Source of the DNA: a virus
IMG/VR virus record: IMGVR_UViG_3300015263_001344
Location: 1-40,711 of that record
Reading direction: 5' to 3' (one strand)
Length of the DNA stretch: 40,711 nucleotides
Shown: piece by piece, positions 10,501-33,075 of the stretch
Layout: each line of letters starts with the position of its first letter
Position numbering within the stretch: position 1 is the stretch's first letter
The notes under the pieces: generated by a model
What the model was told of the DNA's origin: nothing
Databases searched by the model: none
The model's input: only the letters and a program-made list of their open reading frames with translations
Translations under genes and position numbers: made by a program

Positions 10501-11012
10501 TGCCATCACGCTTATTTGACGCTCGAGTAAAGCTAATGAGCCAGGAGGAGGCTCGAGCGTCCCGCGAGGAAGCGAAGAAGAGAGCCCAGGAGGCGGATGA
10601 CGCCATCAAGGAGCTTGAGGAGACGGACGCCGCCAGCGTCAAGCTTAGAGAGACCCTGGCCGCGGCACAGGCTGTGGCGCCGATCGTCTACAAGGAGTAC
10701 CGCCGGCCTGGCTCGAAGTGGATGATCGAGCACTCCCAGGTAGGCCAAGACTACATCTTCCAGGTCCACACCCTGAAGCCGCCGAAAATCGAGGTCCAGG
10801 GAGTACTTGGGCTGATGATCAGCGCAATGGACGTGATCTTCCCAAGATCGTTGGATATTCGCTATGTTCCGCCGAGCCCGCGGTACAAGCTTCAATTTTA
10901 CACAATCAGGGTAGAGAAGGTGGTGGGACTGCCTGGATGGTCAACGGCCATCGAGCGGGCACTGGCCTCCCTGTCAGTCATGGACGCCTGGCCTCGCCAG
11001 GAGCGCGGCTAG
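10500..11012 (+). CDS. hypothetical protein with N-terminal coiled coil, leaderless
   Basis: A 170-residue protein. Residues 13-62 form a strongly charged helix rich in Glu, Ala and Lys (EEARASREEAKKRAQEADD), likely coiled coil; the rest is mixed alpha/beta with an Arg/Tyr-rich patch (YKEYRRPGSKWMIEHSQ) and PPSPRYKLQFYTIR. No family recognised. It is the last + strand gene of the left block, and its TAG shares the palindrome CTAG with the stop of the convergent gene. Confidence 0.65.
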   Translation: MPSRLFDARVKLMSQEEARASREEAKKRAQEADDAIKELEETDAASVKLRETLAAAQAVAPIVYKEYRRPGSKWMIEHSQVGQDYIFQVHTLKPPKIEVQGVLGLMISAMDVIFPRSLDIRYVPPSPRYKLQFYTIRVEKVVGLPGWSTAIERALASLSVMDAWPRQERG

Positions 11013-11305
11013 CCCCGTCCACGTCGCGACATGCGACCGATGGTCTTGAGCCCCAGGGCGGCCAGGAGACCGCCGAGAGCGCCCTTCTTGAGAGCTCCCA
11101 CGGCAGTCTCCTGGGGTCCGTCGTATGGGTTGGGGGAGAAGCCGGCCTTGACGCTGTCGATGGCATGGCCCCCGAGTCCTGCCAAAGCGCCGCCGACCCC
11201 GAGTCGTTCATACAGGCGGTCCGGCCCAATCCGGATTTTCGCCTGCTTAGCGAAGCCCCCCGGCCTGAGCCGGAGGAGTTCGTCGGTGAACGACTGTAGG
11301 TTCAT
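11009..11305 (-). CDS. small tagged virion-type protein (98 aa)
   Basis: It begins MNLQSFTDELLRLRPGG, a weak version of the GFxDELxKLA tag found in head-operon proteins. The rest is glycine- and alanine-rich with two hydrophobic stretches (GVGGALAGLGG, GALGGLLAALGL) and a basic C-terminus, so it may sit in or cross a membrane or line the tail. It follows the probable tail tube gene by six bases, making it the last gene of the tail operon. Function unknown. Confidence 0.6.
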   Translation of the reverse strand: MNLQSFTDELLRLRPGGFAKQAKIRIGPDRLYERLGVGGALAGLGGHAIDSVKAGFSPNPYDGPQETAVGALKKGALGGLLAALGLKTIGRMSRRGRG

Positions 11306-11311
11306 TGAGGT

Positions 11312-12082
11312 CTACTGGTTGGCGAACAGCGGCTGGCCAGCGCCGGTGAGCTGCATACGGATCGGGCGAACCTGATCGAACTGAAGACTCACGCCCTCCA
11401 TGAGGAGGACAGAGCCAGAGCTGATGGACAGCTGGTGGCCCTGGATGTAGCACTCCTCGAGATAGACGGCACCGAGAGTCATGTCGAGCTGGTTGCGGAA
11501 GTAGATGCAGATACCAGTGGGCTGATTGAAGATATCCGACGCCAGGTTCATCCAGAGATCGTCATAGCCTGGATTGAACCGAACCCTGTGGAGCTCTTGC
11601 TGAAGCTGAGGAAGATTCAGCAGAGTCTTGTTGGGGTTGGGAATATCGACGCCGCCGACATTGACCGTGTCATCGCTTTCGTTCAGGAAGTTGAACTTGT
11701 CGGAAGCGGTCTGTTTGTAGTGGGCGTACAACACCTTCAGAAGGGATGGACCGTGGTAGAGGACTCGACCCAGGGTGATCGAACCAATGGTTCGGCCGGG
11801 GATGAAGTACGAGCGGCTGGAGCCAATCTCGAAGATTCGCTGAAGCTGCTTCGACTGGCTCAGGCCTACGTTCTCTAGAACTCCGATGGGGAATACCTGG
11901 TCCCCTTCGTCGTCGGTCAGGGCGTCATCGCCATTGCCGATGTCACTAAGCCGAGGAGGCCCGGCGGCGATGAGCGTTGTCTCTGCCGAGACAAATTCAC
12001 CGCCGAGGAGCTCCTCTTGGACGTGGTGGTTGTGGAAGTCCCAGTTGTTGAAGGACGTGGTTGCTGCTGGACGAAGAGGCAT
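11312..12082 (-). CDS. probable tail tube protein
   Basis: A 256-residue protein encoded directly after the tail sheath, the usual place for the tube. It has a segment GSSRSYFIPGRTIGSITLGR (about 86-105) and a C-terminal beta-rich half (LYLEECYIQGHQLSISSG-like strands: VYLEECYIQGHQLSISSG), consistent with the tube fold, but the assignment rests mainly on gene order. A good ribosome site (AAGGAG) precedes the ATG. It would form the inner conduit for DNA inside the sheath. Confidence 0.6.
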   Translation of the reverse strand: MPLRPAATTSFNNWDFHNHHVQEELLGGEFVSAETTLIAAGPPRLSDIGNGDDALTDDEGDQVFPIGVLENVGLSQSKQLQRIFEIGSSRSYFIPGRTIGSITLGRVLYHGPSLLKVLYAHYKQTASDKFNFLNESDDTVNVGGVDIPNPNKTLLNLPQLQQELHRVRFNPGYDDLWMNLASDIFNQPTGICIYFRNQLDMTLGAVYLEECYIQGHQLSISSGSVLLMEGVSLQFDQVRPIRMQLTGAGQPLFANQ

Positions 12083-12101
12083 TGTTTCTCCTTACCTGGG
12101 A

Positions 12102-14936: not shown

Positions 14937-14958
14937 CTAACGATCCTCCTGATGCACG

Positions 14959-15645
14959 CTAGTGTGTGCCACTCCCGCTTGTCCGTACAACAATGTCTTG
15001 CAGCTTCTTGGAGTTATTCGGCCTCACGCTGTATCTCCGCTGCACCATGGCCTGAATGGCGATGGGAACAACAGACATTTCTGGGCGTGAGTCGCTTTTT
15101 ACGAGGGCTTCTTCCCCCATGTTCGTGGCCTCGACTTTGAAAAAGCCTAGATGATTCGGGACCATGATACCGCGTCTTGCGATTTTCCGCAGGACGTCTC
15201 GTAGCACCTGGAATCCCTCAAAAAGGTAGCCAGCAATGTCCTCGGCCTCGACGCCCTGGCGAGAGAAGCAAGAGAGAACTACAGACCCTCGAATGAGGTC
15301 GGTGTGAGTCCTGGTGTCGGTTCGCATGTCGATGGACTGGAGCTGTCGAAAACCGCTTGTACGCATCCACGCGAGGGGACCCCGATTGGCCACGATGGCC
15401 GGCTTGGAGCCAACCTGGTCGAGGTTGAATGCGTACTTATCCACAATCATTATCTGGGTTTTCTCCTGGTCTGGATCCCAGCAGATTCCCATCGGGTTGT
15501 TCTCGAGGAACATGAGCTGAGCAATTTCAAGGGCGTATGACTTGATGACCTGGTGCGCGCGCACGTACCGCCGCTGATCGTCATGGACGCTGCGGGCGTT
15601 GTCCTGAGAGACCTCAGGGGGAAGTACTGGTTGGTCGTCGCTCAT
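14959..15645 (-). CDS. virion protein, tail terminator candidate
   Basis: A 228-residue protein just upstream of the sheath gene. It has helix-strand alternation with GSVVLSCFSRQGVEAEDIAG (about 119-138), a long helix (LFEGFQVLRDVLRKIARRG) and a strand pair ending VPIAIQAMVQRRYSV, reminiscent of tail terminator or completion proteins. Gene order (joining proteins, this, sheath, tube) supports the role, but no signature is decisive. It starts in an ATGA overlap with the previous gene. Confidence 0.45.
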   Translation of the reverse strand: MSDDQPVLPPEVSQDNARSVHDDQRRYVRAHQVIKSYALEIAQLMFLENNPMGICWDPDQEKTQIMIVDKYAFNLDQVGSKPAIVANRGPLAWMRTSGFRQLQSIDMRTDTRTHTDLIRGSVVLSCFSRQGVEAEDIAGYLFEGFQVLRDVLRKIARRGIMVPNHLGFFKVEATNMGEEALVKSDSRPEMSVVPIAIQAMVQRRYSVRPNNSKKLQDIVVRTSGSGTH

Positions 15646-16163
15646 GTAGTCGGGTTCTCATCTTCGACTTCCTTCAAAGCCTCTTCGAAGGCGTCGCCCA
15701 GTCTATTCCTAACCGTGTTGGTTACGGTGTTTTTCATGGATTCGACGGAAGCCTTTTCTGACTGCTCACGGAAGATGTTCTCGAGCTCGATGCGACGGAA
15801 TACGAGGTCCGATCGGCCATCTGACCGAGACCTGATTTCGGGGACTCCAGTGCTGGCCTCGAACAAAGACTCTACCGATACGGCATCGACCCCCTCAGAC
15901 TTGTCATGTTGAGCCATCTTCGAGGTGGCCCCAAGAATTTCGCTGGCATTGTCGGAGGTAATAACGAAGCGATTCCCTTCCGTCTTAACCTTGACTGCTG
16001 CACCGGGAGCTCTGTTGAGCCCTGGATCTGCCTGAGTGTTCAGATCTCTCTCAATGTTCTTGCCGATCTTGTCGTTCACCCTCTGCAAAACGTCTTCGTA
16101 ATTATCGAAGGCCGTCGACTTTCTCAGGTCGAATCTGAACCAGTTGTTGAAGTTCGTGCTCAT
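15642..16163 (-). CDS. head-tail joining region protein
   Basis: A 173-residue protein with a helical N-terminus (about 20-45, YEDVLQRVNDKIGKNIERDL), a short beta hairpin VKVKTEGNRFVITSD and an acidic helical C-terminus. The order resembles HK97 gp10-like neck proteins, but similarity is weak. It is coupled by ATGA overlaps on both sides, within the run between the capsid and sheath genes. Confidence 0.4.
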   Translation of the reverse strand: MSTNFNNWFRFDLRKSTAFDNYEDVLQRVNDKIGKNIERDLNTQADPGLNRAPGAAVKVKTEGNRFVITSDNASEILGATSKMAQHDKSEGVDAVSVESLFEASTGVPEIRSRSDGRSDLVFRRIELENIFREQSEKASVESMKNTVTNTVRNRLGDAFEEALKEVEDENPTT

Positions 16164-16408
16164 GAGAGGCTGGAAAAGTTCGTCAGGTGATTGGGGGTGG
16201 TCAGCGGAGTTGGTGCCACATTGTATTGAGCGGTGGCGGTTAACTGCGGCTGGCCAGACTTGAGTCCAGTCCTTGCGCCTGATCCCTGTGTTGCATCCAT
16301 CACGGACTGGATCGCAGACGCGAGGTCATATCCGGCCGGTCGCTCATGCTGAGGGTAAGCTGCTATCTTGATGAGCTCGTCGGCAAATCCGCGCATGAAG
16401 TGATTCAT
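16160..16408 (-). CDS. small protein with N-terminal GFxDELxKLA tag (82 aa)
   Basis: It starts MNHFMRGFADELIKIAA, one of the clearest copies of the recurring tag. The remaining ~65 residues are Gln/Thr/Pro-rich and look disordered. It is coupled on both sides (TGATG upstream, ATGA downstream). Being mostly tag plus linker, it may be an internal head or neck peptide, processed during maturation. Function unknown. Confidence 0.6.
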   Translation of the reverse strand: MNHFMRGFADELIKIAAYPQHERPAGYDLASAIQSVMDATQGSGARTGLKSGQPQLTATAQYNVAPTPLTTPNHLTNFSSLS

Positions 16409-18305: not shown

Positions 18306-19199
18306 TTAGATCAGGGTCATCTTGGCGGCGGCACGGAGGTTTCCGTAGCCCATACCGACGTATTCCCAGGTCTGCCAGGAGACCATGTCAGCACGCTTCT
18401 CGATGTAGAACTTGGTGTCGTTCAGAATGTAGAAGTTGCCGAGGTATTTGGGGTCGGTGAAGATGTACAACGTTCCCGGGGGCACGATCGACGACTTGAT
18501 CGTGACGACCAGCTTGTGGCCGAGGATGGTGTTGTACTTGTAGCCGTTGACCAGGATCTCCGAGGCCAGCGGCGAGCCGATGACGGCCGACTCCTGGGTC
18601 ATGAAGTCGTCCCAGTCCGCCTTGTGCATCAGGATGGTGCCAACGGCGAGCTCGTCGGTGTCGAGGGCCTTGAACAGTTTCACCAGGTTCTCGGAGGTGG
18701 CCGGGCCGGCAACCGCCGGGGCAACGTCCTTGCCGTTCGCGGCGATGACCGCGTCGGTGAACTCGATGAACTTTCCGTCCTCGATCTTCTGGATGTCCTT
18801 AACCGAGTTCTCCTCGATGACCTTGGTCACCGGGAAGTCGTAGGCCAGGAGCTCGGCTTCGTTCTTCTTGAACTTTTCCGATTCGATCTTGAAGAACGGA
18901 ATCTCGTAGCGGTCGCCCTCGATGTACCGCTCGAACGCCTTGCCTCGGAAGTTCACCGCGGCCGCCGAGCTCTGGGGCTCGATGTCGACGATCTTCACGA
19001 GGGTGTCGTGATTGACCGAACGCTGGCAGTCCGCCTTGGTGACGTATTCCGGGGGAAGAATCGAACGGGTGAACGAGACTTCGCGCAGGCGCTCGCGCAC
19101 GAAAGCGCCACCCGCCTGAGCGGCCTTCTCGAGACCGTCGTTGGTGTCCAACCTGGAAATGAACAGGTTGTTAAAGGTTGCGGCATCAATCTGATCCAT
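18306..19199 (-). CDS. major capsid protein (HK97 fold)
   Basis: A 297-residue protein that should build the icosahedral shell. The C-terminal segment (LNDTKFYIEKRADMVSWQTW, then YVGMGYGNLRAAAKMTLI) is typical of the P domain of phage capsid proteins in this size class, with an E-loop-like region near FRGKAFERYIEGDRYEIPF. No long delta domain is present, so scaffolding is probably separate. A strong Shine-Dalgarno (AGGAGAAAG) and a leader hairpin precede it, and the decoration protein is encoded just upstream. Confidence 0.85.
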   Translation of the reverse strand: MDQIDAATFNNLFISRLDTNDGLEKAAQAGGAFVRERLREVSFTRSILPPEYVTKADCQRSVNHDTLVKIVDIEPQSSAAAVNFRGKAFERYIEGDRYEIPFFKIESEKFKKNEAELLAYDFPVTKVIEENSVKDIQKIEDGKFIEFTDAVIAANGKDVAPAVAGPATSENLVKLFKALDTDELAVGTILMHKADWDDFMTQESAVIGSPLASEILVNGYKYNTILGHKLVVTIKSSIVPPGTLYIFTDPKYLGNFYILNDTKFYIEKRADMVSWQTWEYVGMGYGNLRAAAKMTLI

Positions 19200-20560: not shown

Positions 20561-21433
20561 CTAGCCGGTGATGATTACGGGACCGCGACCAGACTTCTGC
20601 TTGTCGCCGCCGCCAGAAAGCGCCCTGTGACCCATATATCCCGCGCCAGCGTAGAGAGCAGGTTTCTTCATGGCATTGAGCTGCTTGCTGGTGAGACCAA
20701 CCTCAGACCCACCAATCGTTCCGCTGACGGCGTAGTTCTTGGTGGCTTTCTCGCCAGCCTGAGCTGCCTGCATGGGGACAGACTTTTTCAGGTCATCGAA
20801 CCCTGGAACCTTTTTGAAGCTCGTGTTTGGCATCGAGGTAAGAAGATTCAGTGATGAATCGTCGCCGAGATTCCGCCTCATCCTGGATAGGATAGCCATT
20901 TTCTCTGCTTCACTGGCACCCTCGGCCCTTCTAAGAACATCCTGCCACTCGCGAATGTTCTTGCTGCTGTAGGCCTGAGCCTTCTCAAGCTTTTGGCCGG
21001 CTCGACCGAACCTTTTGGTCGCTACAAATTCTCGGGCCCGACGGCCCACTCGCCCGAAGACAGCCTGTTTCTCGAGAAACTCAGCAACCTCATGCGGGCT
21101 ATGGCCAGCGTCAAGGGCAGCTTTGATGAAAGCTGCTTCCTTGGAGCCAAACTGCGCGGCCACCTTCACCGACCCTGGAGAGGAGTCTTCGATTTCTCGA
21201 AGCTCGGACAGAGTCCGGCCAATGATGGCGACCGCAGCAGTTTTCTCGACCAGTTCCTGCTGGTTCGACGAAACGACCTCTTCGGGGGTCGCCTCTGCAG
21301 CACGACGACACCGCTCGGCCAGTTTCTGAAGATCAGGTCCCTGGCTTTTTGCGGCGGCTTGTTTTTTCAAGCTGCCACCGGAGAGCTCGCTGACTCCGGT
21401 GACATCAAGAAGTTGATCGAGTGTGTAGCCCAT
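20561..21433 (-). CDS. head-operon protein, helical with repeated L-x-K-h-A segments
   Basis: A 290-residue protein. It is Ala/Lys/Glu-rich and helical for the first ~190 residues, with repeated short motifs (SLKKQAAAK, LQKLAERC, LVEKTAAVA, FLEKQAVFG), then a Gly-rich tail (SGTIGGSEVGL, GYMGHRALSGGG). AGGGGAAA precedes the ATG. The LxKhA motifs resemble the end of the recurring GFxDELxKLA tag and may be processing sites. Function unknown; internal head protein or scaffold are possible. Confidence 0.5.
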   Translation of the reverse strand: MGYTLDQLLDVTGVSELSGGSLKKQAAAKSQGPDLQKLAERCRRAAEATPEEVVSSNQQELVEKTAAVAIIGRTLSELREIEDSSPGSVKVAAQFGSKEAAFIKAALDAGHSPHEVAEFLEKQAVFGRVGRRAREFVATKRFGRAGQKLEKAQAYSSKNIREWQDVLRRAEGASEAEKMAILSRMRRNLGDDSSLNLLTSMPNTSFKKVPGFDDLKKSVPMQAAQAGEKATKNYAVSGTIGGSEVGLTSKQLNAMKKPALYAGAGYMGHRALSGGGDKQKSGRGPVIITG

Positions 21434-21475: not shown

Positions 21476-21928
21476 CTAGCCGGGGTAGTGCTTAGAGATC
21501 AGGTGAGAGACGTAAGAAGGGTCTTCGGCCATGCGCTCGAGGATTGCAGCCTTGATGGAGGCCTTCTTCTCGGACTCTTCGCCGCCCTTGTCTTCCTCGC
21601 CTTCACTCTTGGCTTTAGTTTCCTCGTCCTTTTTCTCGGACTCGGAAGACTTCTCGCCTCGAGCTTTCGCCATGAGGGCGGCGACGGCTTTCTCTTTCTC
21701 GCCTTCGCTCGCCTCAGGCATTTCCTCTTCCATCGCCTCTTTGACCAGATCGGCCATGACGTGATGGGCGAGAACTCGACCAATGTGGTCGTAGTCCTGT
21801 GCTTGCTTGATCAGCTCAGCGTCGACATTCGAGAAGTCGGCTCCGTACTGAGCGGAAGCCTGCGCCTGGGCTTCTTTGACGTGGTCTTGCTCATTGAGCG
21901 CCACGAACACTTCTTTGAGTGAGTTCAT
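21476..21928 (-). CDS. acidic scaffold-like head protein, paralogue of the genes at 21979 and 25285
   Basis: A 150-residue protein. It starts MNSLKEVFVALNEQDHVKEA, matching the starts of two other genes here, and has GRVLAHHVMADLVKEA, a diverged copy of the tag. The rest is a highly charged low-complexity region (Glu, Lys, Ser), typical of scaffold or core proteins. Start 21928 is chosen over 21931 because GGAGAA is then six bases away. Likely a prohead core component; inferred. Confidence 0.55.
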   Translation of the reverse strand: MNSLKEVFVALNEQDHVKEAQAQASAQYGADFSNVDAELIKQAQDYDHIGRVLAHHVMADLVKEAMEEEMPEASEGEKEKAVAALMAKARGEKSSESEKKDEETKAKSEGEEDKGGEESEKKASIKAAILERMAEDPSYVSHLISKHYPG

Positions 21929-21978
21929 CATCTTCTCCGGGGTTCAGTTGGAAATAACGGTCGGGGAAAACCCCAGGC

Positions 21979-22548
21979 TTACGCCTGGAGATCTCGAACC
22001 GTGGCGAACCCGGCCGGCGAACCGCTGCCCAGGCTGGTCGCCATGGACTCGGGGTCATCGCTGGTGCCCTGGCCGGCAGAGATGGTTTTGTTCGGCTTCA
22101 GCGAGTCTTTGTAGACTTGCTTCGGCGCCATGCCGGCGGTTTCGATCTTGCCGTCGTGGGCTTCGTTGCCAGCGAAGTTGGTTTCGACAGTCGGCAGACC
22201 GCGATCACCAAGAGCCGGGGTCGACGCCGCAGACGGCGATTCGGTCATCTGGTTCTCGTTGACATCGGTGTCCATGTTGCCGGCGAGCTTCTGGAACTCA
22301 TCGAAGAAGCCGCGAGCCATGATGCGGCCAGCAGCGTCATACTCCGATGCGATCTTGATGATGTCCGGAGTCTCCTCCTGAACGTACTCATCGGCCTCGG
22401 CGTCGGCCAGAGCCTCAGCCATCTTGGCAAAGTCGACGTCTTCTTCGCCGTAGTACTCTTCGCCGTAAGCTTGCGGGATGGCGGCGGCTTCTTTGACCAC
22501 GCCATCGTGCTGATTGATTGCCATGTAGATGTCTTGCAGTGAGTGCAT
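21979..22548 (-). CDS. probable internal in-frame product (189 aa)
   Basis: ATG 22548 is preceded by GGAGGGGAAC, GGAGG being seven bases away, a stronger site than that of the full-length start. Its first residues align with the true starts of two paralogous genes, which supports use as a real start. The long form would then carry a 49-residue extension. Confidence 0.5.
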   Translation of the reverse strand: MHSLQDIYMAINQHDGVVKEAAAIPQAYGEEYYGEEDVDFAKMAEALADAEADEYVQEETPDIIKIASEYDAAGRIMARGFFDEFQKLAGNMDTDVNENQMTESPSAASTPALGDRGLPTVETNFAGNEAHDGKIETAGMAPKQVYKDSLKPNKTISAGQGTSDDPESMATSLGSGSPAGFATVRDLQA

Positions 22549-22695
22549 TTGTTCCCCTCCAGAGGCGAGCTTGGTTGTGCCGACACCATCGTCGGCAAAG
22601 TTACTATCCGAGACGAATTCGCCTCCGGAATCAAAGGTTTCATCGGCGGCCGCAGCCGAACCGAACTTCTCCATCAACTCATTGAGAGTGGCCAT
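21979..22695 (-). CDS. tagged head/core protein with internal restart
   Basis: A 238-residue acidic protein. Residues 1-49 (MATLNELMEKFGSAAAADE...) precede a second unit starting at M50, MHSLQDIYMAINQHDGVVKE, which parallels the starts of the genes at 21928 and 25710. The tag appears as YDAAGRIMARGFFDEFQKLA (about 131-150). The tail is Ser/Thr/Pro/Gly-rich and probably disordered. AAAGGA precedes the first ATG, which lies in the last codons of the protease gene. Internal site: see next entry. Confidence 0.6.
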   Translation of the reverse strand: MATLNELMEKFGSAAAADETFDSGGEFVSDSNFADDGVGTTKLASGGEQMHSLQDIYMAINQHDGVVKEAAAIPQAYGEEYYGEEDVDFAKMAEALADAEADEYVQEETPDIIKIASEYDAAGRIMARGFFDEFQKLAGNMDTDVNENQMTESPSAASTPALGDRGLPTVETNFAGNEAHDGKIETAGMAPKQVYKDSLKPNKTISAGQGTSDDPESMATSLGSGSPAGFATVRDLQA

Positions 22696-24631
22696 GAGTG
22701 GTTCCTTTCTTTTTCTGCGCGAGCCGCTTGATTGCTTTGAAAATGGCTGCGTCGATGGCTGCGCCAGCCAGTACAGCCGGCATGAGCTTTGAGGATGATC
22801 CCACCGCATACAGCGCCATGTCTCCCATTGCGCTGCTGTGCTTCGTGAGGTTTTTCATCCCTTTCATCACCTGAGGTGCCAAGGCAAACGAGGCGAGTCC
22901 GGCAATATCTGGACGCATCGCTACGAAGCGATCGAATGCGTTCAGTTTTGCTCCCTGTCTCCATCGTTTTTGTTGGACGCCTGAGTAAATGTAAGCGAGG
23001 GGAATGAGGCCAATACGGGCCAATGGGTTCACCCCTGCAGTCTTGGAATGATGGTAGGCGGATGATTTCTTACCGTCAAGCCCGCGTCCTGTGCCGTTAG
23101 GACTTAATGGCATGGGCCTGTCTTGGGCGTCAAAGCCAACTGTAGCCCCGATTCCAGCACCGATTAGAATCGGAAGCAGCCACGGGTGCTTCGCCAGAGC
23201 CTTGATTGGGGCCGGTCCTTTGGTCACAAGCCCCGGGAAAGCCCTGCGGAAAACCAAGAATCCACCGGCCAGAGCCATGCTTGCTGGAAGCATTCCTCTC
23301 GTGCCCGACGAGGCCCGCAACCCCTCTTCGGTCATCGGATACCACTGGTTGCCCCTATCGTATCCGTCGAAGTCAGCTTTCTTCTCCATGTCTTGGAGGC
23401 GCCCGAGAAGAATTTCTGGGTAGCAGGACCGGTCAGCGACATAGGGTCGAAGCATCATCGCCACCTTTTCGCTGACGTCATCTTCCCCAAGCTGCGCAAA
23501 TTCACTTGACCAGGATGGTGGCGTCGAGCTCGGTCTGGTCTCATCGAAAACCAGGCGATTCCGCTCGAGCTGGTCGGCGAGCTTCACATGCCCCTGCTTG
23601 ATTAGGATGATTCGCTGGAATTCCTGCGGTCGAAGATCGATACCAAGAGCGGCGATAGTGCCAAGAATTTTCCGCAGAGGGAATCCGTTGGACAGTCGGT
23701 CGAGAAGTTCGGGCGGCAGCGGTCGCTCCATCCCTTTGACCGTGCCAGCGTCCTCCATAAAGGAGTTCAGCTTGGCCTTGTCCTCGGGGGTGGCCCCTTC
23801 AATGTTCGCCGCCGGCTGCGAAGGAACATCTTTCTCGATCTCGGCCCGCTTGTCCTGGGCGGCCCGCTTATCTTCTGCAGACAGCTTGGAGTAGAAGACT
23901 TCCCCGAGTTCCGCTGACGGACGCACCTCATATGGGCGCTGAGTGTAAGCCACCTTCTTGAGGACATGGCTAGCCTTCTCGGCGCCAATGGTGACGAAGC
24001 TGATGTCGAAAAACTTCGGAAGCCTGTTGTAGGCAAAGACCCTGCGACCATCCTGCAAGATCTTGTTCATTTGGTAGCGCAGATGCGTGCAGTACTCACC
24101 ACGGTTCCGTGCGCGGTTTTTACAGATGGAGCATTCGTCCCACGGGACCTTGCAGCCCATCGAGACATCCCAGTAGTGGTTCTTTGCCAGGTCGCCAAGA
24201 ATATCCTGACACTTCATGTCGTCGACGATGACGATGAGAAGAACCCGGTGCATGTTGGGGTCGTAGGCAGATAGCTTGACCTTCTCCCCGTATGCGCGCG
24301 CTGGGTCTTTGTTGACATGGTGCTTGTACGGGTAGGCGTAATGCATGAACGTCTCGTACCCGTAGTCGGCACCTTTGTGGCGGAGGGCTTCTTCGGGGAA
24401 GTAGTCTCCGTTGACGTTCGATCCGTAGTACTCGCCAGCCCCCATCGCATCGATGAGGAGCTGCGTCTTCCCGGGGATGGGCTTGGCCGACCGGATGTAG
24501 TTTTCCATCTCCGGTGGCAGCGGACGAGCCATCTTGATATGGCCGATGGTCTTGTTGACGTCGGCCTCGATGGGAAAGATGTGGGGTCCGGTAGCGTTGT
24601 CGTACCCCGCAAATGTGACAAGCTTGTACAT
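22679..24631 (-). CDS. prohead maturation protease-like protein with membrane-like C-terminal region
   Basis: A 650-residue protein. Residues ~55-220 resemble phage prohead core proteases (gp21/U9-type): SNVNGDYFPEEAL (71-83), YKHHVNKDPARAYG (102-115, catalytic His candidate 104 or 105), LLIVIVDD, YWDVSMGCKV (S157 as nucleophile candidate), and FDISFVTIGAE. Cysteines 160, 167, 170 and 181 may bind zinc. The C-terminal third has three or four hydrophobic segments (for example WLLPILIGAGIGATVGF), unusual for a protease. HIKMARP near residue 31 resembles tag sequences in neighbours. It starts in a TAATG overlap. Confidence 0.6.
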   Translation of the reverse strand: MYKLVTFAGYDNATGPHIFPIEADVNKTIGHIKMARPLPPEMENYIRSAKPIPGKTQLLIDAMGAGEYYGSNVNGDYFPEEALRHKGADYGYETFMHYAYPYKHHVNKDPARAYGEKVKLSAYDPNMHRVLLIVIVDDMKCQDILGDLAKNHYWDVSMGCKVPWDECSICKNRARNRGEYCTHLRYQMNKILQDGRRVFAYNRLPKFFDISFVTIGAEKASHVLKKVAYTQRPYEVRPSAELGEVFYSKLSAEDKRAAQDKRAEIEKDVPSQPAANIEGATPEDKAKLNSFMEDAGTVKGMERPLPPELLDRLSNGFPLRKILGTIAALGIDLRPQEFQRIILIKQGHVKLADQLERNRLVFDETRPSSTPPSWSSEFAQLGEDDVSEKVAMMLRPYVADRSCYPEILLGRLQDMEKKADFDGYDRGNQWYPMTEEGLRASSGTRGMLPASMALAGGFLVFRRAFPGLVTKGPAPIKALAKHPWLLPILIGAGIGATVGFDAQDRPMPLSPNGTGRGLDGKKSSAYHHSKTAGVNPLARIGLIPLAYIYSGVQQKRWRQGAKLNAFDRFVAMRPDIAGLASFALAPQVMKGMKNLTKHSSAMGDMALYAVGSSSKLMPAVLAGAAIDAAIFKAIKRLAQKKKGTTHGHSQ

Positions 24632-25272
24632 TAGGTTGGCGGCTTAAAGGTCGTATTGCTGAGCGCGTTGCGTATCCTTGGAGCCGGCACAGGAGCACTG
24701 GCTACACTTCTCTGCGCTTGAGGCTGGAAGCTGGGGGTGAAGGACCCTTTTGGAGTGCCAGATGGGTTTAGCGCCCTCATAACGCCTCCGGCGAGCTGCT
24801 TTGCTTTGCCTACCTGCTTGCTGCCCTCAGCCTTCTGGTAGGCGTCCCAGCTCTTCTTCTTCTCAAGCCTGACCGCTCTTTCCTGATTCGTCTCCCAGGC
24901 CGGCCTATCGTACTTGGCCGCCGCGCCGCCCTTGCCCCTGTTACCAGAACCGCGCTGTTTGGACGCAGCCGGTGCTGATTCGGGCGATGAGTCGAACTTG
25001 ATTCCAGGGGCTGGCCGATACTGCGCTGGTTGTTCGGTGGGCCTGTAGGCACCAGGGCTAACCCTCGAAACATTGACCGCCGGCTTCCCAAGAGGGCCAA
25101 CCTCTGCCGGCTTTGGAGCCGGAGGGGATTTGGGCGCACCGCCCCCTGCCGGCTTTGAGGCCGGAGGGGGCTTGGGCTGGCTCGCCCGAAACGTACTTTG
25201 CTGCTCAAGTGGGGCCTGTGCGACCCCAAGCTTGAGCAGTTCAGTAGCGAATCCGTGCAGGAAGTGGTTCAC
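24631..25272 (-). CDS. tagged, Pro-rich head protein
   Basis: A 213-residue protein starting at GTG with MNHFLHGFATELLKLGV, a clear copy of the tag. The rest is Pro/Ala/Gly/Lys-rich and disordered-looking, with KPPPASKPAGGGAPKSPPAP and a basic end. No good ribosome site is visible; it follows the previous gene by 12 bases. Possibly a flexible internal head protein whose tag is removed by the protease encoded next; inferred from position. Confidence 0.55.
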   Translation of the reverse strand: MNHFLHGFATELLKLGVAQAPLEQQSTFRASQPKPPPASKPAGGGAPKSPPAPKPAEVGPLGKPAVNVSRVSPGAYRPTEQPAQYRPAPGIKFDSSPESAPAASKQRGSGNRGKGGAAAKYDRPAWETNQERAVRLEKKKSWDAYQKAEGSKQVGKAKQLAGGVMRALNPSGTPKGSFTPSFQPQAQRSVASAPVPAPRIRNALSNTTFKPPT

Positions 25273-25284: not shown

Positions 25285-25710
25285 TCAGCCCCGCTTCGGC
25301 ACAGTGCCAGTTGCTCGAGAGTGAGTAACCGATTGCGAAGCTCCAAGGTCATTTTGGGGCTTCGGGGTAGAAGCCTTCCTGGATCCAGGCATACTAGAAT
25401 AGCCAGTGTTCGATGACTTGGTGTTCCCACCAGTCATTTTCGACATTGGCCAGTTTGCCTTAGTCTGCGATGGACCTCCAGACAACTTCTGGCCGGCTAC
25501 ACTGTACTCGTTGTTCTTGTTAAGTTGAACGACGCCGCCCGTGAGATTCGGCGCAGCAAGCTTGCTGAGCTCATCGGCGAAACCGCGAGCCATGATGCGA
25601 CCGGCGGCATCTTCTTCTTCGGCTTGCTTCCACATTTCAGCCGCTTGCTTTTCGAGCTCCTCGTCCAAGGGGACGATTTGCTGGTTGTACAGATCTGTAA
25701 GACTATCCAT
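25285..25710 (-). CDS. tagged head protein, paralogue of the core-like genes at 21928 and 22548
   Basis: A 141-residue protein. It begins MDSLTDLYNQQIVPLDEELE, followed by an acidic helix and DAAGRIMARGFADELSKLAA (about 35-54), nearly identical to the tag in the 238-residue protein. The C-terminal ~85 residues are Ser/Gly/Asn-rich. AAGGAG lies eight bases before the ATG. Probably a core or internal head component. Confidence 0.6.
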   Translation of the reverse strand: MDSLTDLYNQQIVPLDEELEKQAAEMWKQAEEEDAAGRIMARGFADELSKLAAPNLTGGVVQLNKNNEYSVAGQKLSGGPSQTKANWPMSKMTGGNTKSSNTGYSSMPGSRKASTPKPQNDLGASQSVTHSRATGTVPKRG

Positions 25711-25736: not shown

Positions 25737-26822
25737 TTAATCCCCGGCGACCAGTTTCTTAAGCCCGCCGAACGTTCTTCCGGCGAGACTGGGTTGTGGT
25801 TTGCGTCCAACTTTGGCCAAACGGCCAAGACCTTTCATGCCCGCGCGTCCGAGAAGGAAGGCGCCGAGACCCACGGCGAGTTTGCTCTTGGATGCATCCT
25901 CAAGCAACTTTCCACCCCTATCCACAATCTCACGACCACCTTCTTCGCCCGTTCTCACGATGTTGCGTCCGAGCTCCTCGAGGGAGACAGCAGACTTTTC
26001 CATCCCTCGGTTGTACGAGGTCCCAAGGAATCGCTGCGGCGCCGCAGGGGCGGAAGCATGCTTGCCCATCTGATGACCCGAGCCCTTGCCCATACGCATG
26101 CGACCGCCTTCGACCAGGCCGTGACCCGTGCCGGTGTAGGCCGGTCCCTTGGCAGTGGTGCTGTGGAAGCGTTCGCCGCCAGCCTCGAGGGCCTCGGGTT
26201 GCTCGTATGATGGGCGATGGAATCCGGTCGGCAGACCGTCGCTCTCCATCACGTCAATGTCGCTTGGAGTGGCAGCCGCGGACTTCTCTTCACTGTCTTC
26301 ACCCTCTTCACCCTCTTCGGCCTTGCGTTCTTTGCCGCCGGCGGCATTGGCAAGGAGGTCTTGGAGACGATCCGTGTCGTTCTCCTTCTTCTCGGACTCC
26401 TTGCTTTTCACGCCCTCGCCAGAGCCGTACATGCCGCCACCCTTGCTGCCGGGCTGAATCATGACGTTCCGGCCCACCGACTGACCGCTCAGCATGCCAT
26501 CATTGGGAGGCGAGACATTCATTCCTCCGCCGGCCGGAGTACTCGCTGCTTGCGCGCTCTTCTCGTGGAAGTTTGCGTCATCCCGGCCTGGCATGTCACG
26601 AAAGAACCGACCAGCCTGAGGACGAGCCATCTTCTCGAAGAACAAGCCTTCGGATGCTTTCTTTTCTCGCATGGGGGGTAGGTTCTTTCTCTTGGGGTTT
26701 ACCTGAGGGTTCTTCTTCTCGGGAAGATTTTTGAAGCTCTTCGTCTCGTCAGCCCACTCTTTGGCCTTACTGGGATTGGTGGCGAACATCCACCTTTGCT
26801 GGGCTTTGGACTTGAAGGGCAT
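25737..26822 (-). CDS. head-operon protein with N-terminal MPFKSKAQQRWMFA domain
   Basis: A 361-residue protein. The first ~40 residues (PFKSKAQQRWMFATNPSKAK, then EWADET and LPEKK) form a short module common at the start of phage proteins and resembling DUF3008. FFEKMARPQAGRFF (about 61-74) and RGMEKSAVSL echo the tag. The middle is disordered and acidic; the end has a hydrophobic AVGLGAFLLGRAGMKGLG. The ATG directly follows the previous stop (TAAATG). Function unknown. Confidence 0.5.
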   Translation of the reverse strand: MPFKSKAQQRWMFATNPSKAKEWADETKSFKNLPEKKNPQVNPKRKNLPPMREKKASEGLFFEKMARPQAGRFFRDMPGRDDANFHEKSAQAASTPAGGGMNVSPPNDGMLSGQSVGRNVMIQPGSKGGGMYGSGEGVKSKESEKKENDTDRLQDLLANAAGGKERKAEEGEEGEDSEEKSAAATPSDIDVMESDGLPTGFHRPSYEQPEALEAGGERFHSTTAKGPAYTGTGHGLVEGGRMRMGKGSGHQMGKHASAPAAPQRFLGTSYNRGMEKSAVSLEELGRNIVRTGEEGGREIVDRGGKLLEDASKSKLAVGLGAFLLGRAGMKGLGRLAKVGRKPQPSLAGRTFGGLKKLVAGD

Positions 26823-27152
26823 TTACTTCCCCGATGCGGCCTGTCGGCGATGCTGCATGAGAGCTCGATGGTAAGCAAGAACACCTTCGCGGCGACCGAT
26901 CATGCGAGCCTGCTGGGCCACGTCCATGACATCTTTGCTGCCGCTCTCGTAGCCGGACTTTCTGCCTCTGCGCCGACCGACCTCAGCGCCAGCGGCTCCG
27001 GTTGCGCCAGCCACGAGAAGGCCTTTGCCAACACTCATCTTGCCTGGAGTTCGACCTTGGGCAGCTCGACGCCCGACCATTTGAGCAAGGCGGCCCATCG
27101 ATGGGCGAGCCATCTTGACCAGTTCGTCACCGAAGCCACTAATAAAATTCAT
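26823..27152 (-). CDS. probable internal in-frame product (109 aa), tagged
   Basis: ATG 27152 has GGGAGAAAG upstream (GGAG nine bases away), and the product starts with the tag exactly as free-standing tagged proteins do. It is basic and Gly-rich with AAGRTPGKMSVGKGLLVAG-type segments (GKGLLVAGATGAAGAEVG). In-frame nesting within a peptidase gene is known for phage protease/scaffold pairs. Confidence 0.45.
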   Translation of the reverse strand: MNFISGFGDELVKMARPSMGRLAQMVGRRAAQGRTPGKMSVGKGLLVAGATGAAGAEVGRRRGRKSGYESGSKDVMDVAQQARMIGRREGVLAYHRALMQHRRQAASGK

Positions 27153-27656
27153 CGCTACTTTCTCCCTTTGAGCTCGATCGAGAAGATCCTGCATGAACTG
27201 CGCCTTGCGTGGAACCACTTCTTTGGTTTTTTCGTTGTGAATGAAGAACTCAGAGAAGGTGTCGCAGAAATCTTCCTCTGGGCTTGTTTTCGCATAATCG
27301 TCGACAAATCCATCGCCCTTTGTTGACTCAGACCATTCTAAAACAAGGGAAGGGTCGTGTTTGAGGATGGCGTGAGCGAGCTCATGATAGACAGATCGGC
27401 GAAACTGTTCAGGATCAATCTTCCCGTCATGATACACGCCCTTGTCGAATACAACAATTGCGCCGAGCTTCGGCTCGTACTTTGAATGCCCCGGAGCCTC
27501 GGGGGGTGCATTTATGAGGACCGGCCGCCTGATGATGCTTTTGATATGGGGGTTTTGCTCGAGCCATGCCGACGGCAATGGTTTGAGCATCGCCAAGAGA
27601 TGGCGAGCCTCCTGGGGCGACCATTTGCCCTCGAGCTCGACGCCGCGAATTCTCAT
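26823..27656 (-). CDS. HExxH zinc metallopeptidase domain fused to a tagged head protein
   Basis: A 277-residue protein. Residues 1-165 hold a metallopeptidase-like domain: VYHELAHAILKHD (H91, E92, H95) and SPEEDFCDTFSEFFIH, where E128 or a nearby acid may be the third ligand. From M169 the sequence reads MNFISGFGDELVKMARPS, the recurring tag, then a basic Gly/Ala-rich region. An internal ribosome site suggests the second part is also made separately. Coupled by ATGA to the gene upstream. Role may be host entry or head maturation; inferred. Confidence 0.6.
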   Translation of the reverse strand: MRIRGVELEGKWSPQEARHLLAMLKPLPSAWLEQNPHIKSIIRRPVLINAPPEAPGHSKYEPKLGAIVVFDKGVYHDGKIDPEQFRRSVYHELAHAILKHDPSLVLEWSESTKGDGFVDDYAKTSPEEDFCDTFSEFFIHNEKTKEVVPRKAQFMQDLLDRAQREKVAMNFISGFGDELVKMARPSMGRLAQMVGRRAAQGRTPGKMSVGKGLLVAGATGAAGAEVGRRRGRKSGYESGSKDVMDVAQQARMIGRREGVLAYHRALMQHRRQAASGK

Positions 27657-29263: not shown

Positions 29264-29272
29264 GGGGTTCCC

Positions 29273-29965
29273 CTACATCATGAGAGCTTTGGCCGCAAAT
29301 TCGCCAGCCTTGAGCGGAGCCATTTTCATGGGACCCCGATCTTCCCTCGCTTCATCAATCCTGCTTTGGGTCTCAGCGAGGTTCTTGATGTCGGCCGGCT
29401 GAATTTGGCCAAGCTGGGCGGTGGACGTCACCCAGGTTCCGGCCACGGTTGGATCGGCTGCAAGGGATGGGGCATACCTCGCGAGGACGCCGAAGTGACG
29501 GCGGACGCGACCTGGATCGTCCTCCTCGAGCTCCTTCAGAACCGGATGCTCTTTGAACATCTGTTTGTAGGACATGTCGATCTCAGTCTTGAGCTTTTTG
29601 TCTCGGCTGTGACGCATAAGCCCGCCGATGCCAGCGGTGGCTCCAGCCGTCATGCCAGCCAGCGCCATCATCTTGCCAAGATTGGCTGCGACATCAGACC
29701 AGCCAGCGGTCTCTGGCGGATCGCCCTTGATCGGAGGAGGTGGAGTCCTTCCACCAACCTTGAGCTTTTCAAAGAACCCACCAAGCCCACCGGAGGGCTC
29801 TTTTCTCGGAAGGCCTCGCATCGACTGAAACAGTCGGCTTGCGTATTTCCCCATCTCTTTTTTGATGAGGCGTTCACGTTGCTGGAGGACTTCGGCGGCA
29901 GCCTCCTTGGACATAAGGCCACGGCGTTGACACTCAGCGATCATTTGCAGCGATGACTTGGGCAT
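29273..29965 (-). CDS. virion-associated protein of unknown function
   Basis: A 230-residue protein. N-terminal helix with MSKEAAAEVLQQRERLIKKE, a Pro/Gly linker (GGRTPPPPIKGDPPE), one hydrophobic glycine-rich segment (MMALAGMTAGATAGIGGLM, about 99-117), then a region YKQMFKEHPVLKELEEDDPG and FGVLARYAPSLAADPTVAGT, which reads like a conserved phage block, but I cannot name it. CGGAGA lies six bases before the ATG. Possibly a minor head or ejection protein. Confidence 0.5.
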   Translation of the reverse strand: MPKSSLQMIAECQRRGLMSKEAAAEVLQQRERLIKKEMGKYASRLFQSMRGLPRKEPSGGLGGFFEKLKVGGRTPPPPIKGDPPETAGWSDVAANLGKMMALAGMTAGATAGIGGLMRHSRDKKLKTEIDMSYKQMFKEHPVLKELEEDDPGRVRRHFGVLARYAPSLAADPTVAGTWVTSTAQLGQIQPADIKNLAETQSRIDEAREDRGPMKMAPLKAGEFAAKALMM

Positions 29966-29967
29966 GA

Positions 29968-30303
29968 CTATCTCCGAAAGGCCTCTTCTTTGTATTTACC
30001 ATGGATGCGCTCGAGCTCGCGCTCAGTCGGCTTGTTCTTCATAAGCCGATTGAAATTCGTTGTCGCCGCTGGACTGACGTAGGCCTGCCTGGCTATCGGG
30101 TCGTATCCGGCATGAAGGTAGCTCTCAGCCTGCTCGCCGGATCTTCCACGCTTGTATCCCTGCCTTGCCGCAAGGGCTGTTCCGCCGACGGTCATCCCCA
30201 ACCCGAGGGAATGAAGGGGGTGTTTTACAGCAAGGCCCAGAAGCTTTTTTGCAATAGCTGTCTTGACGAGCTCGTCACCAAACCCTGCAAGAAAATGGTT
30301 CAT
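29968..30303 (-). CDS. small tagged head protein (111 aa)
   Basis: It starts MNHFLAGFGDELVKTAI. A hydrophobic stretch (KHPLHSLGLGMTVGGTALAA) follows, then RQGYKRGRSGEQAESYLHAG and a charged helical C-terminus. It is coupled to the previous gene by ATGA. The tag and hydrophobic segment are like those in the genes at 27152 and 24631. Function unknown; internal head protein suspected. Confidence 0.6.
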   Translation of the reverse strand: MNHFLAGFGDELVKTAIAKKLLGLAVKHPLHSLGLGMTVGGTALAARQGYKRGRSGEQAESYLHAGYDPIARQAYVSPAATTNFNRLMKNKPTERELERIHGKYKEEAFRR

Positions 30304-31250
30304 GACAGCTCGCGGAGCCTCTGGTGGTAAACCTTCACCTCGTCATCGATACGCAGAAGGTTGTGGAGACCGTTCTTGATCTCGCCGGTCTTGCGCTGAA
30401 CGGTATCCAACGAGATGAGGACGGGGTGAGCACCATTGATGACGGTGACGTTCCCCATGTCATCACTGATGTAGTCCTCCGGGGCCTTTGAGATCGCCAT
30501 CTTTTCCAGTCTAAGACGGGCGCTTCCGTGAACCTCCTTGAGGAGGCGTTCCTCGAAACGTGGAAGATATTCTTCGGCGACCTTGTGCAATCCAGACCCC
30601 GACGCAGCTTCGTAAATCTGCCTGAAGGTGGCACCACCGAGAACAGCTTGTTTCACAGTGGCATAGGCACTCTTCTCAAGCGATTCAAGCTCCATGCCTT
30701 TGTAAAGAACCTTGTCCTCGGCGTCCTGGCGTTCGGCGGCCTTTTTCTGGAGGATGATGATGATGCGCTTCTTTTCACCGTCCTCGTGAAGACCATTGTG
30801 CACGGCGGCGGGATCTGCGCCCATCATTGAGATGGTCGACGGGCCGGACAGGGGGATACCCTTCGGCGGACCAGCGTAGTCGGAGTCTGACATCGGAGGA
30901 CAGCTGACCATCGGACTCTCTGGATCGTCGGAGTCAAGCGGCTTCTTTCCGACAACCTGAACAACGGTCTTGGCATCTGCCAGAGGGAATGCAATGGACT
31001 CCTTCTGGGCGGTCTTTGACCAAAGAGCTCGATGAGTGGCAATGTTGGCCATCTCACAGATGCGCTCGATCTGGTTTGCGTTCAGATCGTTTTCTTCGGC
31101 GATCTTCTGAATCGTGGAGTTGAGCGGAACTCGTTCTTCGAGATATCGCTTGGCTGCAGTTTTGGCCAGAAGCTCGAGGCGATCGGCCGCAACCTTGATA
31201 TGTCGACTGCTCGGTTCGGAAAGCAGGTAGTTAAAGTGGCTCATGGACAT
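30300..31250 (-). CDS. first gene of the head operon, helical protein of unknown function
   Basis: A 316-residue, mostly helical protein. The first ~90 residues include LELLAKTAAKRYLEERVPLN and an HTH-like helix pair (TIQKIAEENDLNANQIERIC). A Pro/Ser-rich linker (about 112-145) joins a second helical half with LEKSAYATVKQAVLGG and LEKMAISKA, again LxKhA-like. The start has a second in-frame ATG two codons later; GAGGATCC is upstream. TTGACC-17-TACCTT provides a promoter. It is not a recognisable portal. Confidence 0.55.
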   Translation of the reverse strand: MSMSHFNYLLSEPSSRHIKVAADRLELLAKTAAKRYLEERVPLNSTIQKIAEENDLNANQIERICEMANIATHRALWSKTAQKESIAFPLADAKTVVQVVGKKPLDSDDPESPMVSCPPMSDSDYAGPPKGIPLSGPSTISMMGADPAAVHNGLHEDGEKKRIIIILQKKAAERQDAEDKVLYKGMELESLEKSAYATVKQAVLGGATFRQIYEAASGSGLHKVAEEYLPRFEERLLKEVHGSARLRLEKMAISKAPEDYISDDMGNVTVINGAHPVLISLDTVQRKTGEIKNGLHNLLRIDDEVKVYHQRLRELS

Positions 31251-31279
31251 CCAGGATCCTCGCTTCTTGGTTCTACTCG

Positions 31280-31308
31280 AAGGTATAAGGATAGAGTATC
31301 AGGGTCAA
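31280..31308 (-). promoter_or_regulatory. promoter for the head operon
   Basis: On the - strand TTGACC (31308-31303), 17 bp, TACCTT (31285-31280); start expected about 23 bases before the ATG at 31250. It overlaps the divergent + strand signals TTGGTT, GGTATAAG (31282) and TAGAGT (31292-31297). Confidence 0.5.
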
Positions 31309-31339
31309 GAAAGCGGAAATACAGTCAAAGGAGAAGCAA

Positions 31340-32011
31340 ATGAAATTTTGTCCTCATTGTGGAGGAGACCTCACATCATACATGGCAGCCGAGCAAGGCA
31401 ACTCGGCTGTCCTGAGGCCCCCAAACCGTGAGAAGTACGACCAGGACAAGACCTGGCGTCAGCTCATCATGGATGCCGAGGCCCTCAAGGGGTCACCCCC
31501 CACCCCCATGGAGCTCGTCGGCAAAGCGGTCGACAGGGTTCGAGGGGCATTTTCGGGCACGAAGGAGGGTGACTCCGTTGGCACGATTGTTCATATCGCG
31601 ACAGATCGCAATATCCAGCCCCAGGGCGGAGTCCTGCATCGAGCGACCCTCCTGGAGGGGAGAGTGCAAGACGACATCAGCAAGATGGAGCGGATGGGCT
31701 ATGCCGTTCAGGACGGGAAGGTGGTGGTCGTCAACGATATCCCGGTTGGACGCGGTTACGTCGCAATCAATTACTGGGGAGGGGAAAAGCAGTATCGCCG
31801 CTGGCACATGTCGAAACCGGTCACCATAAACCCATCGAGGAACGGCAACCCCTTCTTCATGGACGAGAACATGATCGCATTCGGAGTATCGTGGAAAGAC
31901 CCAAGCAAGATGGAGGAGGCGCTTCTCGAGCTCTGCGAGATCCTGGCCGAGGGCGTTCATAAAGAGCGGACCATCGGCATACCGCTAGCCATGGAGCTTG
32001 TCTGGCAATAG
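31340..32011 (+). CDS. zinc-ribbon protein of unknown function
   Basis: A 223-residue protein starting MKFCPHCGGDL with one CxxC pair; no second pair is obvious, so metal binding is uncertain. The body is mixed alpha/beta with IVHIATDRNIQPQGGVLHRA, VVVVNDIPVGRGYVAINYW and a C-terminal helix (MEEALLELCEILAEGV). AAAGGAGA lies seven bases before the ATG. It opens a three-gene + strand island between the two - strand operons. No family recognised. Confidence 0.6.
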   Translation: MKFCPHCGGDLTSYMAAEQGNSAVLRPPNREKYDQDKTWRQLIMDAEALKGSPPTPMELVGKAVDRVRGAFSGTKEGDSVGTIVHIATDRNIQPQGGVLHRATLLEGRVQDDISKMERMGYAVQDGKVVVVNDIPVGRGYVAINYWGGEKQYRRWHMSKPVTINPSRNGNPFFMDENMIAFGVSWKDPSKMEEALLELCEILAEGVHKERTIGIPLAMELVWQ

Positions 32012-32020
32012 TCGGTTCCT

Positions 32021-32053
32021 GGCATAAGAAGGATGAAAGGAGAACTTCTTATG
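32021..32053 (+). promoter_or_regulatory. GGCATAAG element and 9-bp inverted repeat over a start codon
   Basis: CATAAGAAG (32023-32031) and CTTCTTATG (32045-32053) pair perfectly; the Shine-Dalgarno AAAGGAGA (32036-32043) is in the loop and the ATG (32051) is the end of the 3' arm. Same design as at 5326-5353. Confidence 0.55.
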
Positions 32054-32500
32054 TCCATAGGAACAATGAGAGAGCAATTCGCTGAAGCGTTTGACCGCCT
32101 AATGCATTGCCGGATCGTTCTCGAGAACCTCAAGAAAACAGCCGAAGATTGCCTGGAGCCAGCTCAGCCAATTCTCAAGCTCATCCATCTTGGTCGCCTG
32201 AAGGCTGACGGAGAGACCATGCGAGACATCGAAATCGGTGTGAAGCGGGTTGAATCCGACAAGCGGAATGCAATCAAGTGCATGGATGATGCCGAGAAGA
32301 AAGCTGATTCCTGCTCCAGCATCATCAGCCGGCTTGAGCTCTACTCGAGAACGCCAACCAGCAATGAAGAAATACGAAGGTGGGAGGACAAGTTTCAGGA
32401 AGAACTCTGGTTTCTGAATGCCTCGATAGAGGAAGTTCAAGCGCTACGTGCGCAAATCGAAGGGAGTGCAGCTTCCCTAGACAAATCGCTGCCCCTGTGA
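32051..32500 (+). CDS. helical hypothetical protein (149 aa)
   Basis: An almost fully helical protein, charged, with long amphipathic segments (FAEAFDRLMHCRIVLENLKK, DIEIGVKRVESDKRNAIKCM) and a C-terminal helix; coiled coil likely. Start 32051 is used because AAAGGAGA is seven bases upstream; a GTG/ATG-type extension to 32033 would begin inside the ribosome site. It is followed directly by a strong terminator. Function unknown. Confidence 0.6.
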   Translation: MSIGTMREQFAEAFDRLMHCRIVLENLKKTAEDCLEPAQPILKLIHLGRLKADGETMRDIEIGVKRVESDKRNAIKCMDDAEKKADSCSSIISRLELYSRTPTSNEEIRRWEDKFQEELWFLNASIEEVQALRAQIEGSAASLDKSLPL

Positions 32501-32501
32501 G

Positions 32502-32543
32502 CCACAGCGGGGGGCCTCACGGTCCCCCGTTGCGGTTTTTTTT
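32502..32543 (+). terminator. Rho-independent terminator
   Basis: A 12-bp stem with one mismatch and one G-U (32502-32513 with 32524-32535), loop of 10, then eight T (32536-32543). The next promoter overlaps its 3' side. Confidence 0.85.
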
Positions 32544-32566
32544 AGCTATCGGGTAGACTGTGGGCA
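32530..32566 (+). promoter_or_regulatory. leaderless promoter, TTGCGG-18-TAGACT-GTGGGC-ATG
   Basis: TAGACT (32554-32559) ends six bases before the ATG at 32566; TTGCGG (32530-32535) lies 18 bp upstream. No Shine-Dalgarno. Confidence 0.6.
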
Positions 32567-33075
32567 TGGATAACGTCCTCGAGGGGTTTGCCGATGAGCT
32601 TGTAAAGCTCGCTGGGAAGCGGAGTTCGTCGGCGGGCGCGGAGGACGAAGACCTTCTCGCTCTCTACCAAAGGGTGAAGAGCAGAAGTGACAAGGGCCTA
32701 AATGATAGCACTCTGAAAAAAATCAGAGGTAAGGGACGTCAAGTCAGTCGCGATTACCTGGCGTCCACCCTGATTGGCTCTGTCGCAACCCCAGTTGCCC
32801 TCCTTGGAAGCAAGCGGATCTCGAGAGCCTTGCACAACCGAGAAGTCCTCAAGGCCATGCAGGGTGTGAAGGGGAGGCGTCGAAAAGCCCTGGCTGGATA
32901 CCTAGAGAGCGGCCCTATGCTTGGGAAGACGAAGGTTCCTGGGATGATGAAGGGCAAGAAGCCCATGATGACCCACGCCGAGCTAGCCGGTCACTCAATT
33001 CGCGGTGGAGCGATGGGTTCCATCATCCAGATGCTGCGAGACCGGTTCTCTGGCTCAGCTGGCATCGGCGAGTAG
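32566..33075 (+). CDS. tagged protein from leaderless mRNA (169 aa)
   Basis: It starts MDNVLEGFADELVKLAG, a near-perfect copy of the tag of head-operon proteins, although it lies on the opposite strand and has its own promoter. The body is basic and helical (RSDKGLNDSTLKKIRGKGRQ) with a hydrophobic patch LIGSVATPVALLG. GTG 32560 is in frame but overlaps the box. It ends exactly where the convergent small gene ends. A virion-bound protein expressed outside the main operon is the best reading. Confidence 0.6.
   Translation: MDNVLEGFADELVKLAGKRSSSAGAEDEDLLALYQRVKSRSDKGLNDSTLKKIRGKGRQVSRDYLASTLIGSVATPVALLGSKRISRALHNREVLKAMQGVKGRRRKALAGYLESGPMLGKTKVPGMMKGKKPMMTHAELAGHSIRGGAMGSIIQMLRDRFSGSAGIGE

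Follow-up and report, generated by a model that had tools for sequence, protein, structure and literature searches.

In phage T4 and in giant phages, N-terminal sequences target proteins to the prohead core and are removed by the prohead protease. The known motif of the T4 gp21 protease is I/L-x-E, and serine prohead proteases are expected to have a conserved histidine and a conserved serine. In the T4 capsid-targeting sequence (CTS), a targeting half precedes a processing half within a 10-residue peptide (PMC9026906). SPN3US gp245 cuts after A-X-E (PMC10052503), and N-terminal sequencing of the phage G capsid protein showed that it is shortened from 282 to 255 residues, or from 31.2 to 28.2 kDa (PMC5646251). 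The InPase domain is found mainly in phage proteins that are likely packaged in the virion, the polyvalent proteins (PMC5512222).

We analysed a stretch of viral DNA of 40,711 nucleotides (the window), in which a short tag recurs in proteins that otherwise differ. The tag described below, with its K-x-A code, resembles the T4 CTS in layout but has a different sequence and a different site. As with the T4 CTS, which is carried by IPI-III and cut by gp21 (PMC9026906), a short N-terminal peptide is common to unrelated small proteins, internal in T4 and predicted to be cargo here. It ends at a prohead-protease site, recognized in this case by sequence only, and its putative targeting residues stand before the processing residues. 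The gene order protease, scaffold-like protein, capsid protein is also that of T4 genes 21-22-23. Unlike the T4 CTS, the tag has 16 residues instead of 10, another sequence and an h-x-K-x-A/G/S ending (h, hydrophobic) instead of L/I-x-E; it belongs to a phage G-type capsid lineage, and copies also stand behind acidic blocks inside proteins. Compared by eye with T4 MKTYQEFIAE, the tag shares no sequence with it and lacks the L/I-x-E ending. We therefore suggest that it works like a CTS, yet we do not class it as a member of the T4 CTS.

Other systems share further features with the window. Phage G gp27 is a homologous capsid protein with a 27-residue propeptide, cut after alanine with glutamine next (PMC5646251), but it has alanine and not lysine at P3, and no tag has been described for phage G. 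SPN3US and phiKZ are comparable in having large heads, many internal proteins and propeptides cut at several sites (PMC10052503), whereas the h-x-E site of the SPN3US type is unenriched here in most blocks. The N-terminal signal of P1 DarB suffices for a reporter to enter the head (PMC9024508); DarB is, however, the single cargo studied, and its signal was not described as a repeated tag with a protease-site end. Like the polyvalent proteins, a tagged protein of 699 residues in the related contig G002 carries an InPase domain. Packaging of polyvalent proteins was proposed by genome context (PMC5512222), whereas the tag is a candidate signal. A literature search, mainly of open-access journals, turned up no earlier account of this tag or of prohead cleavage at K-x-A.

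The tag and its copies in the window

The tag consists of a helix part, MNHFLxGFxDEL, and an ending that is nearly always hydrophobic-x-K-x-small, as in MNHFLAGFADELVKLA-GK, where it is h-x-K-x-A; many tags have G or S, not A, as the last residue. The tag helices are amphipathic. The pattern GFx[DT]E[LF]xK was observed six times in the window genes, compared with 0.001 expected from 1000 within-protein shuffles. In all-versus-all BLASTP with the tags masked (the mask left the copies in the 21979 and 21476 genes unmasked), the tagged proteins gave marginal matches only, the best at E 0.02. Across 17 related contigs, which are partly non-independent, we counted 82 N-terminal tags against 3.0 in shuffles. 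The tag is thus real and beyond chance. The original prediction had proposed a recurring tag on otherwise unrelated proteins, and these counts, together with how little the proteins share once masked, confirm it.

When all reading frames were re-read, every peptide that had been listed was found in its place. N-terminal copies on the minus strand start the 82-residue gene 16160-16408 (MNHFMRGFADELIKIA, 16361..16408), gene 24631-25272 (MNHFLHGFATELLKLG, 25225..25272) and gene 29968-30303 (MNHFLAGFGDELVKTA, 30256..30303); the predicted mature parts of the latter two have a pI of 10.7 and 10.2. Contigs G004-G007 contain tagged proteins whose downstream sequence is related to that of the 16160-16408 product. 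On the plus strand, MDNVLEGFADELVKLA (32566..32613) starts the candidate cargo gene 32566-33075, with a mature part of pI 10.9. Other tags lie in mid-protein. One (GRIMARGFADELSKLA, 25555..25602, minus strand) stands behind the acidic segment of gene 25285-25710, with the h-x-K-x-A sites LEKQA and MWKQA shortly upstream. Another (GRIMARGFFDEFQKLA, 22282..22329, minus strand) is in gene 21979-22695, which encodes an acidic scaffold-like protein and is placed between the protease and capsid genes.

Three further copies needed qualification. The peptide at 27152 (MNFISGFGDELVKMA, 27108..27152, minus strand) is present as predicted, but no ORF starts there: it forms residues 169-183 of the 277-residue ORF 26823-27656, right behind EKVA, and the mature part would have a pI of 12.0. 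The same arrangement is seen in relatives G002, G003, G004, G006 and G007, and in six relatives the tag comes after a purine-rich sequence resembling GGAG/GGAA and an ATG. As relatives, too, have EKVA and the purine-rich sequence ahead of this ATG, it is possible that internal initiation or cleavage releases the tagged part. The two copies that had been called weak are both there. The one in gene 11009-11305 (MNLQSFTDELLRLRPGGFAKQA, 11240..11305, minus strand) is N-terminal and has R for K, followed by GGFAKQA; short proteins resembling its product carry the full tag in G003 (MNRQAFADELMKVA) and G004 (MKLQAFSDELVRTA). The one in gene 21476-21931 (IGRVLAHHVMADLVKEA, 21734..21784, minus strand) is degenerate.

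Neither Pfam nor PHROGs suggested a function for any tagged protein of the window, apart from a weak metallopeptidase hint in ORF 26823-27656. There, an HExxH-type metallopeptidase-like part (YHELAHAILKHD), which weakly matches Pfam Peptidase_Mx1, is fused with the tag plus a basic tail.

Protease, capsid protein and the K-x-A sites of the head genes

The gene at 22679..24631 (minus strand) encodes a 650-residue prohead (head maturation) protease that matches PHROG 18299, head maturation protease, at 2e-7. Its relatives are found in Arash, D69, phage G (gp19; hhalign probability 99.6%) and Rhodococcus E3 (gp77, 'prohead protease', 2e-5). H105 and S157 are invariant in an alignment of 18 sequences (HHxNKDP ... 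VSMGC), and we predict that they are catalytic. A comparison of the protease profile with the single T4 gp21 sequence was not significant (hhalign probability 0.2%), and a PDB sequence search with the profile returned chance matches only. By its sequence, the window protease falls within the head maturation proteases of tailed phages, and the window belongs to the phage G-type lineage of capsids and proteases.

The protease itself appears to carry the site. Its predicted propeptide (residues 1-35, 24527..24631, minus strand) ends at HIKMA|RPLPPE, as judged from the K-x-A motif and an AF2 model. In that model, residues 1-35 almost all have pLDDT <50, so that nearly all of the chain up to HIKMA35 is disordered, and a confident domain begins at about residue 40; the model as a whole is of low confidence (pTM 0.36), and Foldseek against the PDB gave no match, neither to a herpes-protease-like fold nor to any other. 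A K-x-A near the N-terminus, ahead of the catalytic domain, was found in 26 of the 26 proteases with a complete N-terminus.

The major capsid protein (297 residues, 18306..19199, minus strand) matches PHROG 2522, major head protein, at 2.6e-17 and is a homologue of phage G gp27. Since residues 28-282 of the phage G protein have a mass of 28.17 kDa, the sequenced cut lies after A27. Phage G A27|Q28 aligns exactly with K25-A26-A27|Q28 of the window, which places the end of a predicted 27-residue propeptide (19119..19199, minus strand) at GLEKAA|QAGG. All 16 sequences of an alignment have K25 and A27. The capsid N-terminus reads approximately INELFxQKLxxxEGLEKVA|QEGxAFIR, and 32 of 34 capsid proteins have K at P3, the phage G cut having Ala there. 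For the capsid protein, AF2 gave a poor model, which was set aside, and a paper on the phage G tail contains no cleavage data.

The same motif stands out across the head genes. When all gapped residue pairs in the head genes were ranked without bias, K-x-A headed the list for the window, for Salmonella phage Arash and for Vibrio phage D69, and was not enriched in the remainder of these three genomes. For G002, where the block was drawn more widely and took in other genes, it ranked second, with a slight rise elsewhere. Twelve head blocks were scored for the fuller pattern h-x-K-x-A. Its enrichment was 3.5- to 8.5-fold (z 8-16) in 11 of them; in the twelfth, G004, no more than two genes could be scored. 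As the window and G001, and likewise G008 and G009, are near-duplicates, this corresponds to about nine independent blocks. Blocks were left unscored for G003, G005, G007, G010 and G011, where the protease or capsid gene is absent from the contig or the gene calls. The mirror pattern h-x-A-x-K showed no enrichment in head blocks. Outside the head block h-x-K-x-A shows a slight excess of about 1.0- to 1.6-fold, due perhaps to additional substrates or perhaps to background. Applied to T4 genes 67, 68, 21, 22, 23 and 24, the same ranking placed I-x-E first and L-x-E ninth of 1465 pairs, with K-x-A unremarkable; since this recovers the known protease motif, the statistic does detect prohead-protease sites. 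We also considered h-x-E sites of the T4/phiKZ type for the window proteins and rejected them, as E-type sites are unenriched in most head blocks.

Within the window's head operon, six h-x-K-x-A sites against 0.6 expected occur both in the protein encoded at 30300..31250 (minus strand), a conserved candidate core protein with relatives in Arash and D69, and in that encoded at 20561..21433 (minus strand); a third protein (25737..26822, minus strand) has three against 0.6. Among the Arash proteins with many sites, six of seven are annotated as structural, compared with 53 of 251 genes (P 4e-4, annotations as given). Arash and D69 have the K-x-A code with a tag that is at most diverged (MNHNEELLKGLREGLVDGLLKAAG is the Arash equivalent) and almost no full tags.

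Using the internal form of the tag, GxxhARxFxDELxK, as a DNA-pattern search, we retrieved a varied set of viral contigs whose motif gene adjoins both this protease gene and the capsid gene and lies between them, protease first; the remaining matches were copies of one unrelated repeated sequence. A tblastn search of cultured phages with the short consensus motif found nothing.

Some relatives show further peculiarities. Protease ORFs of at least 900 residues occur in L158, L161, L164, L183 and L193, with one intein/homing-endonuclease-like fragment, which suggests inteins in these prohead protease genes. In L161, terL is in three pieces. Contig L234, from an Acidobacteriota metagenome bin, encodes a capsid protein of 91% identity; a host assignment by binning alone is unsafe.

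Tagged genes away from the head operon

Gene 32566-33075 was originally predicted to encode a cargo protein sent to the head from outside the operon. Its orthologues have the tag in six of six cases, and identity among them is 0.60 in the tag, 0.17 directly after it and 0.37 in the remainder. Tags on the opposite strand occur in the window, G002, G004, G006 and G007, and in G002 and G010 the distance between tag and protease gene reaches 82 kb. Among the distal tagged proteins are the 699-residue G002 protein, which combines KTSC and InPase domains, and an ATP-dependent DNA ligase with a LigD-type phosphoesterase domain, which has a short extra N-terminal stretch before its tag. The predicted mature tagged proteins are basic, with a median pI of 10.4 versus 7.8; this comparison used a mechanical gene caller on related contigs, and its P value is optimistic because the contigs are related. 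The conservation among orthologues, the opposite-strand and distal tags, the basic mature proteins and the CTS-like layout together lend indirect support to the 32566 product as putative head cargo.

L052:13792-15027 encodes a tagged protein of 411 residues that matched nothing in Pfam or PHROGs; it adjoins the gene of the KTSC and InPase protein and one more tagged gene. The three form a tagged cluster outside the head operon.

A model for the tag and alternative explanations

We propose that the tag is a T4-CTS-like N-terminal propeptide in which a targeting amphipathic helix is followed by an h-x-K-x-A/G/S site for the phage's own protease, and we regard this as probable. According to this model, the helix MNHFLxGFxDEL would recruit a protein into the prohead core during assembly. 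It leads directly into h-x-K-x-(A/G/S), where the protease encoded at 22679-24631 would remove the tag. The protease would cut at h-x-K-x-A in its own chain, in the major capsid protein and, repeatedly, in the scaffold-like proteins of the operon. The mature products, mostly small and basic, would stay with the DNA and might be ejected along with it. Because relatives carry the same tag on genes far from the head operon, it would serve as a movable address label. Several observations speak against the model: the phage G cut has Ala at P3, many tags end in G or S, Arash and D69 combine the code with a diverged tag at best, some tags lie in mid-protein, and the protease gave neither a PDB match for its low-confidence structure nor a significant match to gp21.

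The original prediction of a capsid-targeting and processing signal fares differently in its two halves. Predicted cleavage of the tag by the head protease is well supported by site position and homology: the tag ending is the motif found at the predicted N-terminal cuts of the phage's own protease and capsid protein, and the capsid site matches the sequenced N-terminus of the phage G homologue. We infer that it is this protease that cuts the tags. The targeting half is supported indirectly; by analogy with T4 (PMC9026906) and P1 DarB (PMC9024508), the helix would target the prohead core and the cargo would be delivered there.

The main alternative is that h-x-K-x-A is a protease site which the helix merely positions, the proteins entering the head via other contacts. 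Scaffold-like and capsid proteins do have h-x-K-x-A without the full GFxDEL helix, and full tags are almost absent from Arash and D69, which do have the sites. However, if a bare site is enough there, the additional conserved helix, also present on distal and opposite-strand genes, needs a reason of its own, and in T4 the targeting and processing residues are separate halves of one 10-residue peptide (PMC9026906). We consider this explanation unlikely. It is less likely still that the tag and the h-x-K-x-A repeats stay uncleaved and serve as a helical motif that docks to the core or to the shell. An amphipathic helix and repeats in scaffold-like head-operon proteins would suit such a motif, but it falls at the boundary of the disordered N-terminus of the protease and at the very position where sequencing placed the mature N-terminus of the phage G capsid protein, and in the T4 control such enrichment tracks protease sites.

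That several tagged genes adjoin in one operon could also mean that the tag is a functionless remnant of gene duplication or N-terminal shuffling. We find this most improbable, as the tag is more conserved among orthologues than the rest of the protein, tags are found on unrelated enzymes, and the 82 tags of the divergent contigs far exceed the 3 expected.

Returning to the model of a targeting and processing propeptide, we give roughly even odds to its broader form, in which a movable N-terminal label and a K-x-A prohead-protease code make up a general protein-loading system of this large and mostly uncultured phage lineage. If so, proteins packed into the head and injected, including the DNA ligase and the InPase/KTSC protein, could be read from sequence alone. 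Many uncultured genomes outside the T4-like phages would then carry a head-targeting signal that is legible in the sequence, and their prohead protease would differ in specificity from the enzymes of T4, phiKZ and SPN3US, which cut at glutamate. Injected cargo would become predictable, and the tag would be a compact means of loading proteins into phage heads.

We also noted distal genes, one per genome, with 8-10 h-x-K-x-A sites against fewer than one expected: L084:10467-11336 (Arash gp242), D69 170872-171723, G001 85189-86334 and G002 79559-80710. Their products are further candidate substrates of the protease.
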